Positions 54,028 through 57,575 of a DNA stretch of 64,000 nt are shown one piece after another. How positions within the stretch are numbered: the stretch's first letter is position 1; each line of letters begins with the position of its first letter. Under the pieces are notes generated by a model that ran no database searches, was not told the DNA's origin, and saw only the letters and a program-made list of their open reading frames with translations. This stretch comes from Verrucomicrobiota bacterium (GTDB lineage Bacteria > Verrucomicrobiota > Verrucomicrobiia > Limisphaerales > PALSA-1396), in the NCBI GenBank assembly GCA_016200005.1, contig JACQFP010000002.1, positions 1 through 64,000 of the forward strand. Reading direction: 5' to 3'. Position numbers and translations under genes: made by a program.

Positions 54028-55584
54028 ATGAAAGCGAGATGCGATGGCGCAATTGAGTTTGGGGAGCGCGCCCGCCTCGGGCGCTGCCGAAGACGCCCGC
54101 GTCGTCCGCTTCCTCAGTCGTTTGGTCACATCATTTCGATTACGCTGCGCGGAGAGGGTTCGGCGCGAGGGCGCGCCGAACGACAGCCGGGGCGGCTGCG
54201 CTCCCCAATTCTTTCAACGTCGGCGCTCCGGTCAATTATTTGCGTTCTCGTCGCGGTTTCTCTGGTTGTTGCCCACTCGTTATTGGCGGCAAGCAACAAT
54301 GAGTCAAACCTTGGTGCCGACGGCTGGAGCGGAGTGGCGCAGCGCGACGAAATCCGCCCCACCTTCGAGTTCAAGAAACACGGCGGACCAAATCACGACG
54401 GCAGTCTCATCATTCGCGCCGATGACCGCGAAGGTTTGGACGGCCATTGGACCAAGGCTTTTCCTGTCAAGGGCGGCCAATACTACGGCTTCCGCGCAGT
54501 GCGGCGGGTCGAAAATGTGGTGTCACCACGCCGCAGCGTGCTGGCGCGAATTCTATGGCGCGATGAAAAGGGCCGCCCCGTGTATCACGATGAACCCGGC
54601 GCCAAGAGCTACGCGCCCGGCGTGGCCCCAGTCGCCGAACCGGAATATCCGCCGGATCGAGCAACAGACGCGAAGGGCTGGACGGAAGTCGCCGACGTTT
54701 ATCAGGCGCCGTCGAAAGCGACCCAGGCAATTGTCGAATTGTATTTCCGCTGGGCGCCGCGCGCGCAAGTGGAGTGGAGCGAAGTTGCGTTGACCGAAAC
54801 CACCGCGCCGCCGTCGCGCAAAGTCCGTCTCGCCACCATTCATTACGTGCCCAAAGGCGGGAAGACAGCCATGGACAGTTGCCGGCAGTTCGCGCAGTTC
54901 ATTGAAGAAGCGGCGCGACAAAAGGCCGACCTCGTTGTGCTGCCCGAAACACTTACGCAAACCGGCAATGGACTTTCCTACGTCGAAGCTGCGGAGCCGA
55001 TTCCCGGTCCATCGACCGAATACTTTGGTGAGCTGGCGCGCAAGCACGGCGTTTATCTCGTGGCGGGTTTGGTCGAGCGCGAGAAGCATCTCGTCTATAA
55101 CACCGGCGTGCTCATCGGACCGGACGGCAAACTTATCGGCAAGTACCGTAAGGTCACGCTGCCGCGCACGGAGATCGAGGCGGGCGTCACGCCCGGCCAC
55201 GAGTATCCGGTGTTTGACACGCGCTTCGGCAAGGTCGGCATCATGATCTGCTACGACGGTTTCTTCCCCGAACCCGCGCGGCAGTTGAGCATTCGCGGTG
55301 CGGAGGTGATTGCGTTTCCGGTCGCCGGCTGCAACCCGATGCTCGCCGCGGCGCGCGCGTGCGAGAACCACGTGTTCCTCGTCAGCAGCACCTACACCGA
55401 TCTCAAGAGCAACTGGATGATCTCCGCGATTTATGACCGCGAAGGTCAGGTCCTCGCTCAAGCCAAGCAATGGGGCGAAGTGGTGGTGGCAGAAGTCGAT
55501 TTGGGCAAGCGGCTTTATTGGTCGAGCCTGGGCGATTTCAAAGGCGAGAACCCGCGCCACCGACCGGTCTGGCCGGGGGAATGA
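54028..55584 (+). CDS. Nitrilase-family carbon-nitrogen hydrolase with repeat-derived N terminus
   Basis: This 518-residue protein has its hydrolase domain at about 270-518. The Glu-Lys-Cys triad is visible as [26 protein letters not shown] and [16 protein letters not shown]. The substrate is probably an amide or nitrile. An N-terminal beta-rich domain (about 100-260; GYYFRWAPR-type strands) precedes it. From ATG 54028, residues 12-60 are encoded by a 146-bp repeat (54061-54206), Arg-rich, lying before the signal-like helix [21 protein letters not shown] later start, if used, would omit the repeat. Confidence 0.85.
54061..54206. repeat. 146-bp palindromic element, copy 1
   Basis: The element starts GGGGAGCGCGCCCGCCTCGG and ends GGGGCGGCTGCGCTCCCC, so its ends are inverted repeats. 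An inner hairpin, TTCGGCGCG/CGCGCCGAA, is also present. It matches the reverse complement of 56554-56699 over both outer thirds, with a diverged centre and identical length. It lies within the 5' coding part of the nitrilase-like gene. Confidence 0.85.
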
Positions 55585-55588
55585 AAGT

Positions 55589-55728
55589 TCCGAAGGCCGA
55601 AATCCGAGGACCGAAAGAATACCAAATGCCAAAATCCGAAACACGCCATTTACGCCCGTCACATTCGGGCTTCGGGCTTCGGTTTTCTTTCGGATTTCGG
55701 CCATCGGATTTCGGACTTGTCTTCGGCG
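55589..55728. repeat. Hairpin of CCGAAAT-type heptamers, second copy
   Basis: The left arm has CCGAAGGCCGAAATCCG and ACCGAAAG. The right arm has TTTCTTTCGGATTTCGG and CGGATTTCGG. It shares unit and layout with 25855-25986. It fills the gap between the nitrilase-like gene and the first amidohydrolase, ending ten bases before the latter's ATG. Confidence 0.83.
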
Positions 55729-55737
55729 ATTGATCGC

Positions 55738-56535
55738 ATGGAAAGCCGGTTCGATATTTGGGACCTCCATTGCCACCTGTCTGGCGTGCCGGGCGACACA
55801 CCTGAAGCGCGCCTTGGCAAACTGCTCGAATACGCCGACCGCATGGGTATCGCGCGACTTTGCGTCTTCATGGGCATGGAGTGGAGTTACGATCCGTCGC
55901 TGGAAAAAATGCGACAGGAGAACGACGAGGTACTGCGGGCGTTGCGCAACTTTCGCGACCGCGCGTTCGGCTTCGTCTATCTCAACCCGAAACACACGCA
56001 AGCCAGCCTCGATGAACTCAACCGCTGCGTGCGTGACGGCCCGATGGTCGGCGTGAAACTCTGGGTCGCGGAGCATTGCAACGCACCGGAACTCGACCCG
56101 CTCATCAACCGCGCGGCGGAACTGAAGGCCATCGTGTTTCAACACACCTGGATTAAGATCACCGGCAACCTGCCCGGTGAATCCACGCCGATGGAACTGG
56201 CGGAACTCGCCGCTCGACATCCACAAGCGACACTCATCTGCGGTCACTCCGGCGGTGATTGGGAAATCGGATTGCGTGCGATTCGGCCGCACAAGAACGT
56301 GTATGCGGACCTGGGCGGAGGAGATCCGACGGCAGGTTTCACCGAGATGGCCGTACGCGAGCTTGGCGCCGGGCGCGTTCTCTACGGCAGCGACGTTGGG
56401 GGGCGCAGCTTCGCCTCGCAACTGGCGAAGGTGTTCGGCGCTGACATTCCTGAATCGGCCAAGCGACTCATCCTCGGCGAGAACTTGAAACGGTTACTCC
56501 GCCCAATCCTGCGGGAGAAAGGGGTGAAAGCGTGA
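55738..56535 (+). CDS. Amidohydrolase-family metal-dependent hydrolase
   Basis: This 265-residue TIM-barrel protein retains the metal-ligand pattern: HxH in IWDLHCHLSG, His in IVFQHTWIKITG, His in LICGHSGGDW and Asp in LYGSDVGG. The substrate is unknown; the context with a nitrilase-like enzyme suggests an amide or cyclic metabolite. ATG 55738 follows the repeat; the frame extends 21 bases further. Its stop overlaps the next GTG start. Confidence 0.88.
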   Translation: MESRFDIWDLHCHLSGVPGDTPEARLGKLLEYADRMGIARLCVFMGMEWSYDPSLEKMRQENDEVLRALRNFRDRAFGFVYLNPKHTQASLDELNRCVRDGPMVGVKLWVAEHCNAPELDPLINRAAELKAIVFQHTWIKITGNLPGESTPMELAELAARHPQATLICGHSGGDWEIGLRAIRPHKNVYADLGGGDPTAGFTEMAVRELGAGRVLYGSDVGGRSFASQLAKVFGADIPESAKRLILGENLKRLLRPILREKGVKA

Positions 56536-57575
56536 GCGAAAAACTTACTGAATGGGGAGCGCAGCCGCCCCGGCTGCCGTTCGGCGCGCCCTCGCGCCGA
56601 ACTCTTCGCGCGATGGAGACACCCAATGGTTCGCTTGTCCCTTCGCGAAAGCCGACGACGAGGGCGTCGTCGGCTGCGCCCGAGGCAGGCGCGCTCCCCG
56701 AACTCAATCGGCGCAGCTTCCTCAAAACGACGGTCGCCGCTATCGGTCTCAGCGCGCTGGGTATGGAGGTCCGCGCCGCAAACAACTCGCCGCGCTCGCG
56801 CGAGGGTTTCATTGACGTCAACATAAACCTCTCGCGCTGGCCGTTGCGTCGTCTGCGCTTTGACGACACGGCCGCGCTTGCCGCGAAACTCCGCAGCCAC
56901 GGTGTGACGCAAGCTTGGGCGGGCAGCTTCGAAGGTCTCCTGCACAAAGACATTGCGGCGGTCAACACTCGTCTCGCCGAGGAGTGTCGCCGTCACGGCC
57001 GCGGGTTATTGGTGCCGTTTGGTTCGATCAATCCGAAGCTGCCGGATTGGGAGGAAGAGTTGCGTCGCAGCGCCGAAGAACACCACATGCCCGGCATCCG
57101 ATTGCATCCCAGCTATCACGGTTACAGACTTGATGACCCGGATTTTGCGCGACTGCTCCGGCTCGCGACCGAGCGCCACATGATTGTCCAACTCGCGCTG
57201 CTGATGGAAGATGAACGCATGATGCATCCGTTGCTGCGCGTCGAGCCGGTGGACACCGCGCCGCTGGTTGACCTCGTCAAGCAAACGCCCGGCCTCCGGC
57301 TCGTTCTCCTGAACGCCTTGGGCAAGCTCCACGGCAAGCCACTCAGTGACTTGATCGCAGCGGGAGAAGTTTACGTTGAGATTTCCATGCTCGAAGGTGT
57401 GGGCGGAGTCCGCAACCTGCTGGCGCAGGTGCCATCGAGTCGCGTGCTCTTCGGCTCATTCGCGCCTCTGTTCTACTTTGAGTCCGCGCTCCTCAAGTTG
57501 AAGGAATCTCCACTGACCCAGGAACAAGTGCGCGCCGTCCGCCTTGGCAACGCGCAACCTTTGCTGGCGCGGTAG
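56532..57575 (+). CDS. Amidohydrolase-like protein lacking metal ligands, Tat-type signal
   Basis: This 347-residue paralogue of the gene before it starts at GTG (GTGA overlap). A repeat (56554-56699) supplies about residues 8-56, before the twin-arginine signal LNRRSFLKTTVAAIGLSALG. In the TIM-barrel part the HxH position reads FIDVNINLSRWP, the later His positions read IVQLALLMED and LVLLNALGK, and the Asp position reads LFGSFAPLF. All expected ligands are therefore missing. It is probably a non-catalytic partner or has a different chemistry. Tat export with a 60-residue n-region would be unusual. Confidence 0.85.
   Translation: MSEKLTEWGAQPPRLPFGAPSRRTLRAMETPNGSLVPSRKPTTRASSAAPEAGALPELNRRSFLKTTVAAIGLSALGMEVRAANNSPRSREGFIDVNINLSRWPLRRLRFDDTAALAAKLRSHGVTQAWAGSFEGLLHKDIAAVNTRLAEECRRHGRGLLVPFGSINPKLPDWEEELRRSAEEHHMPGIRLHPSYHGYRLDDPDFARLLRLATERHMIVQLALLMEDERMMHPLLRVEPVDTAPLVDLVKQTPGLRLVLLNALGKLHGKPLSDLIAAGEVYVEISMLEGVGGVRNLLAQVPSSRVLFGSFAPLFYFESALLKLKESPLTQEQVRAVRLGNAQPLLAR
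56554..56699. repeat. 146-bp palindromic element, copy 2 (inverted)
   Basis: The element starts GGGGAGCGCAGCCGCCCCGG and ends GAGGCAGGCGCGCTCCCC. It is the reverse-orientation counterpart of 54061-54206 with the same length. Both ends are strongly conserved and the middle of about 45 bp differs. It lies within the 5' coding part of the second amidohydrolase gene. Confidence 0.85.

Follow-up and report, generated by a model that had tools for sequence, protein, structure and literature searches.

Probable REPIN-like elements in frame within two genes of a Limisphaerales bacterium, and a RAYT transposase embedded in essential genes of its relatives

Two palindromic elements are found in a window of 64,000 nucleotides (contig JACQFP010000002.1 of GenBank assembly GCA_016200005.1, positions 1 to 64,000) from a Verrucomicrobiota bacterium. 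They are named W1 (54061-54206, plus strand) and W2 (56554-56699, minus strand), and each lies in the 5′ coding end of a gene, here gene 1 and gene 2 (Table 1). We consider it very likely that both are non-autonomous copies of a mobile element resembling REPINs, the paired and inverted form of repetitive extragenic palindromes (REPs), and that a version carrying a REP-associated tyrosine transposase (RAYT, of the Y1/HUH class) is embedded in frame in essential genes of relatives.

W1 and W2 are each exactly 146 bp long, lie in opposite orientation and have the termini GGGGAGCGC/GCGCTCCCC. W1 and reverse-complemented W2 share 77% identity over the full length (BLAST E 1.8e-25), with matching ends and unlike centres, and a likeness of this degree is not due to chance. 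The open frame of gene 1 starts at ATG 54028 and that of gene 2 at GTG 56532; W1 begins 33 nt and W2 22 nt into the frame, and in both genes the export signal follows the element. An initial annotation of this DNA had described twin inverted 146-bp elements with similar ends and different centres, in frame ahead of the export signals, and the coordinates, termini and identity found here agree with that description.

Both copies belong to a dispersed family. Either one, used as a BLAST query, found about 40 places in the 6.5-Mb genome of this bacterium, a member of the order Limisphaerales (genome G000), and a covariance model found 52 distinct places at E<=0.01, with scores on both strands. 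This model was built from alignment A1, which comprises 33 full copies from G000 and related genomes, all of them without RAYT. In these copies a stem GGGGAGC/GCTCCCC closes the element, each end holds two hairpins, with loops CCT/CCCT on the left side and AGGG/GGG on the right, and the centre, about 50 nt long, is variable; positions A5, G6 and C7 of the GGGGAGC foot are invariant. The terminal inverted repeats GGGGAGC...GCTCCCC, a feature of the miniature elements derived from DDE transposons, are present, and their 22-nt arms are 86% complementary. Across the alignment 96.7% of cells are paired. Changes on both sides of a pair were counted at 21 pairs in 118 cells, against 13.0 pairs and 23.4 cells in shuffles, and sliding the partner by 1-3 columns gave at most 24 double-change cells. 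Stem sequence varies from copy to copy while pairing is kept, and RNAalifold, unprompted, recovered the same structure as the counted one.

The family extends to 63 of 116 genomes of the order and 51 of 81 genera, as judged by covariance-model matches with only 27 candidates scored per genome. In the sister species G001 a DNA-level search gave no match and the covariance model gave 18, so absence by BLAST was not trusted. Copies in G000 are largely intergenic or near gene 5′ ends, and at least 7 of 46 are intragenic with coding sequence on both sides. Target-site duplications were sought in the flanks of 26 copies and none was evident; exact empty sites were too diverged. Many copies in G000 have weak inverted flanks in common (cggaacgatgcgattgaatt / attcgtttcaa...) within 20-25 bp of flank, so the mobile unit may extend beyond 146 bp.

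The transposase was found in relatives, within genes. A search of 58 genomes for the RAYT family revealed a subfamily of about 142 residues located within very long open frames, and the covariance model, although built from copies without RAYT, scored strongly at the RAYT borders. Of 41 loci, 28 have an element match directly at each border of the RAYT, and 36 at one border or more. In alanyl- and threonyl-tRNA synthetases (AlaRS and ThrRS) the RAYT is an internal domain flanked by element halves or whole copies; Pfam assigns both the enzyme and the Y1 transposase to a single frame, and the solved structures of AlaRS and ThrRS lack residues at the insertion site. The AlaRS of G052 (1398 aa) holds two RAYT domains. 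The 196 genomes searched gave 32 matches to the subfamily, every one within an open frame (555-1540 aa); these include an embedded RAYT in the single-contig genome G097. The AlaRS matches in 30 genomes are pieces of one frame, and hence these genomes have no second, intact AlaRS.

Scanning GTDB genomes yielded 52 usable RAYT loci from Verrucomicrobiota and neighbours. The host genes were AlaRS (23), RecG (19), ThrRS (4), MetH (3), CarB (1) and others (2), and in 50 loci the RAYT is internal to a long open frame with an identified host gene. The two exceptions are L318 (211 aa), which stands alone, and L342, which ends at a contig edge and has no host assigned. The motifs MPDHxH and KFxYxCxNPW, containing the HUH and Tyr residues, are invariant in 26 distinct RAYT sequences, and differences per site at codon positions 1/2/3 are 0.295/0.203/0.588, as expected for a protein under purifying selection. 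The RAYT of G023 matches NF047646 at 83.1 bits (cut-off 80). The isolated domain has a confident predicted fold (pLDDT 88.4), and its closest structural match is 4er8, a RAYT bound to a REP hairpin (E 3.8e-7); an AlphaFold prediction of the whole AlaRS-RAYT fusion, made with eight sequences, was poor (pLDDT 51) except in the RAYT domain and was not used for the host enzyme. On the RAYT tree the host gene changes 8 times, where the minimum possible is 5 and the shuffled mean 23.9; the transposase thus appears to be mostly inherited within one host gene, with a few jumps between hosts. Other RAYT types also occur in frame within genes and are flanked by other repeat peptides (L241, L244, L243, L242, L246); their hosts are a DinG-like helicase, PriA, a UGPase-like protein and a DnaE-like protein.

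Copies without RAYT likewise lie in frame inside housekeeping genes. The sole valS gene of G000 holds three, and metH, carB, priA and a gene for an ABC binding protein hold one each. In relatives, in-frame copies were found in valS (in the same loop), purL, genes of RND pumps and a nitrate reductase-like gene, among others. Solved homologues of ValRS (1gax), CarB (1bxr), PriA (8fak) and PurL (3viu) have no residues at the insert sites. Among the copies flanked on either side by coding sequence, fourteen are in frame and free of stops and one breaks the frame, a ratio that carries some ascertainment, as the 14 first came from an open-frame scan; a second scan in which an open frame was not required found no further broken gene. 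The occurrence of this family inside essential genes, together with its transposase, had not been foreseen in the initial annotation. Across the order (L169-L198), several repeat families unrelated to one another occupy the variable loops of ValRS in frame, and different genera have them in the same loops. Peptides of these loop repeats include GTGYQPVxxGNLP...TGQWPVPP, AGRMPALPG, LTPALSPKGGEGE and others. In two genera (L185 and L188, the ValRS of G055 and G030) the same loop holds a foreign domain of about 150 aa that is not a RAYT.

In the window, W1 is a gain in gene 1 and not ancestral, as judged from orthologues. The orthologue in the sister species (91% protein identity) reads ATGAAA and then directly the signal peptide, and six further relatives (G004, G015, G020, G035, G045 and G052) have a plain signal peptide at the N-terminus; none of the seven has the element. 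Relative to the sister gene, W1 is accompanied by some 25 bp of flanking sequence at either end. In gene 2, the region from the start to the twin-arginine signal varies among relatives, G003 having a different repeat-like peptide there, so it looks like a permissive site; the gain in gene 2 is dated less sharply than that in gene 1. The proposal that two genes gained copies of one element, read from opposite strands, is supported by these comparisons and by the 52 places in the genome.

Whether the window copies are translated has to be considered for each gene. Between W1 and the signal peptide of gene 1 there is no ATG, GTG or TTG, and ATG 54028 (ATGAAA, with a Shine-Dalgarno-like site upstream) is conserved in its context with the sister species. 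Because there is no start codon in between, translation of W1 is nearly compelled, since otherwise the gene would have lost its export signal. In gene 2 an in-frame ATG lies at 56613 within W2, and translation may begin there or at GTG 56532. The caution of the initial annotation, that translation might begin downstream, was apt.

According to the mechanism that we propose, the unit would consist of a variable spacer between two double-hairpin REPs in inverted orientation, both of which have GGGGAGC as their foot. RAYT would recognise the element ends and act on single-stranded hairpin DNA, by analogy with TnpA_REP, which acts on GTAG hairpins in single-stranded DNA (PMC8266576). The linkage of RAYT with the elements and its conserved active site are observed; we infer that it recognises and moves GGGGAGC hairpins, and that W1 and W2 would have originated by RAYT events. 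Because the elements are rich in GC and have few stop codons, the host gene would stay open after some insertions. In-frame copies that land in loops, in linkers or before export signals may then be kept and presumably translated as extra peptide; their frames and their absence from homologues are observed directly. In the full version found in relatives, a RAYT gene between element halves or copies forms an in-frame internal domain of essential genes such as alaS, thrS, recG, metH and carB. The 146-bp copies would be RAYT-less relatives of it, and those in the window look like transposase-less derivatives. In gene 1 translation would run from the conserved ATG through W1 into the signal peptide, and in gene 2 it would start from either of the two codons above.

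Several points weigh against this mechanism. The foot is GGGGAGC rather than the classical GTAG. Most genomes compared are metagenome assemblies. G000 itself has no RAYT of the embedded subfamily at E<=1e-20, so W1, W2 and their kin in this genome may be relics or may be moved by one of its other RAYTs; the initial annotation had pointed to a linked RAYT-type or other transposase, and a RAYT gene does adjoin element halves in relatives, but not in G000. At L134:2242-2418 (G000:C13) the N-terminus of a Wzt-like ABC ATPase is put out of frame with the remainder of the protein by a copy that is probably an inactivating insertion. The n-region added by W1 is long and arginine-rich and may hamper export. 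Of the element frames 67-71% are open, compared with 45% in shuffled sequence, so an open frame alone proves little, and near a gene 5′ end one can arise untranslated.

Four Y1 transposases first found in G000 were considered as mobilisers. Three of them (L047-L049) have no GGGGAGC hairpins nearby. The fourth, a RAYT gene (L050/L227, in G000:C43), is flanked by GGAGCGCGGCTGTG...CAGCCGCAGC hairpins, a different GGAG-footed repeat at which the model scores only 17.6 bits. Because of this hairpin mismatch, none is named as the mobiliser.

A tentative alternative for the 5′-end elements, and the one that survives best, is that they are non-coding insertions in leaders or start regions, with translation beginning downstream or within the element and the upstream open frame being accidental. 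Copies followed at once by a clear start codon (nuoL-like L026, lipoprotein L014, response regulator L030), the ATG inside W2 and the frequency of open element frames favour this explanation, and a non-coding reading was likewise made for many 5′-end REPs (PMC3733652). However, it meets difficulty in gene 1, where no start codon follows W1 and the upstream start with its Shine-Dalgarno-like site is conserved in the sister species, and it cannot account for the interior copies in ValRS, CarB, MetH, PriA and PurL.

Far less probable is a conserved cis-acting RNA, such as a leader, attenuator or riboswitch-like element, whose covariation would come from RNA function. The strong compensatory changes and the many copies close to gene 5′ ends would fit it. 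However, copies point either way with respect to genes and also lie within coding regions unrelated to one another, copies within a genome are alike, the gene 1 copy is missing at the orthologous site of the sister, the model scores on both strands, and an Rfam search with the element gave no match to a family. We regard as slightly more doubtful still that the inserts are removed before or during translation, by RNA excision, ribosomal bypassing or protein splicing, which would leave the proteins unaffected. Stable hairpins and insertions in essential single-copy genes suggest such removal, yet excision needs no open frame, and the frame is kept without stops in every RAYT fusion and in 14 of the 15 intragenic copies that have coding sequence on both sides; moreover, the RAYT codons fit purifying selection and no splicing motifs were noticed. 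Bypassing and RNA excision are rejected because the frames stay open. That the segments are ordinary ancestral coding sequence, palindromic by chance, agrees with the open frames of both genes and is otherwise refuted by the orthologue comparison, in which the same N-terminus was looked for in distant orthologues and did not occur, by the dispersed copies and by the opposite orientations in which two genes read the element.

The REPIN-like mobile system preferred here can be compared with known systems. Inverted REP doublets with a variable spacer and compensatory stems are called REPINs (PMC3116915). Our family shares several traits with the REPINs and bacterial interspersed mosaic elements (BIMEs) of Pseudomonas and E. 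coli that are associated with RAYT (PMC3116915, PMC8049555): a palindrome at either end in inverted orientation, a variable spacer of constrained length between them, stems with compensatory changes, a large number of scattered non-autonomous copies, and hairpins of the same type on both sides of a Y1/HUH RAYT, the last here in relatives and not in G000. A clover-like fold has been proposed for those elements as well. Unlike them, each end here is a double hairpin, the foot is GGGGAGC instead of GTAG, many copies lie within coding sequence, and the RAYT does not stand alone but forms an in-frame internal domain of essential genes. The palindromic elements of Rickettsia (RPE; reviewed in PMC10969869) are also palindromes of about 150 bp, in frame in unrelated genes and apparently translated. 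Their hosts have reduced obligate intracellular genomes and belong to a different phylum, and they are not known to have a dedicated transposase, whereas a transposase-bearing version exists here. The likeness to RPE is one of working, namely in-frame insertion (14 interior copies here). Intragenic GTAG/CGTC REPs, including a case from the same phylum, O. terrae (Verrucomicrobia), are short palindromes in frame in replication, repair and tRNA-related genes (PMC3733652), but their units of 20-40 bp with GTAG or CGTC tags are shorter, and RAYT genes there are flanked by REPs or terminal inverted repeats, whereas here the RAYT lies inside host genes. With its GGGGAGC foot and no GTAG, our family falls outside the GTAG REPs. 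The embedded protein is of the same HuH/Y1 superfamily as those in the TnpA_Y1 survey (PMC6006769), in which unexpectedly long RAYT proteins were set aside as fusions or annotation errors. Our literature search found no paper describing RAYT inside tRNA synthetases. The system works like REPIN/RAYT, lacks the GTAG feature and differs by its embedding in coding sequence together with the transposase.

Table 1. Positions of the two elements, their parts and their host genes in the window
Feature	Positions	Strand	Evidence
W1 element copy, 146 bp, in 5′ coding end of gene 1	54061..54206	+	covariance-model score 123 bits; 52 related genome places at E<=0.01
W1 left foot GGGGAGC, pairs with 54200-54206 (closing stem P0)	54061..54067	+	alignment A1, pair counts
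W1 hairpin 1, GCGCCCG CCT CGGGCGC	54068..54084	+	alignment and pair counts
W1 hairpin 2, imperfect in W1	54086..54109	+	alignment and pair counts
W1 variable centre (spacer)	54110..54157	+	alignment
W1 hairpin 3, GTTCGGCGCG AGGG CGCGCCGAAC	54158..54181	+	inverted-repeat search; alignment and pair counts
W1 hairpin 4, core CAGCCG GGG CGGCTG	54183..54199	+	alignment and pair counts
W1 right foot GCTCCCC	54200..54206	+	alignment and pair counts
Gene 1, carbon-nitrogen hydrolase (nitrilase family) with signal peptide; W1 encodes residues ~12-60	54028..55584	+	PF00795 E 5.4e-48
W2 element copy, 146 bp, in 5′ coding end of gene 2, inverted relative to W1	56554..56699	-	covariance-model score 140 bits; BLAST
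W2 hairpin 1	56676..56692	-	alignment and pair counts
W2 hairpin 2, GCCGACGACG CCCT CGTCGTCGGC	56651..56674	-	inverted-repeat search
W2 hairpin 3	56579..56602	-	inverted-repeat search
W2 hairpin 4	56561..56577	-	alignment and pair counts
Gene 2, amidohydrolase (Amidohydro_2) with twin-arginine signal; start GTG 56532 or ATG 56613 inside W2	56532..57575	+	PF04909 E 9.9e-15

In the intergenic stretch that follows gene 1 (55589-55715), ahead of the next gene, the window also holds a palindrome of TCCGAAGGCCGAAATCCGA-type repeats. Its arms of 52 nt match at 71% and its inner arms of 19 nt at 95%, and it is probably another interspersed repeat.

REPs were named for their extragenic location, and many of the repeats described here lie within genes. 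More broadly, we think it probable, with less confidence than for the identity of W1 and W2, that across Verrucomicrobiota and neighbouring phyla a REPIN/RAYT system has put its transposase in frame into single-copy essential genes, where it would be inherited and expressed within AlaRS, ThrRS, RecG, MetH or CarB, and that copies such as W1 and W2 are its offspring, making extra loops and N-terminal segments in many proteins. If this is true, only a precise in-frame deletion would remove the element without depriving the host of that protein. RAYTs are regarded as single-copy, vertically inherited and domesticated genes that do not copy themselves, and their long persistence is an open question (PMC8049555); here the transposase is locked in frame into genes that are hard for the cell to lose, which suggests a concrete answer. 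In addition, annotation should allow for the fact that a long, unusual insert in a Verrucomicrobiota protein can be mobile DNA and that a RAYT fusion dismissed as an error can be genuine. With several repeat families in the same ValRS loops of different genera, protein evolution by in-frame capture of repeats becomes directly testable.

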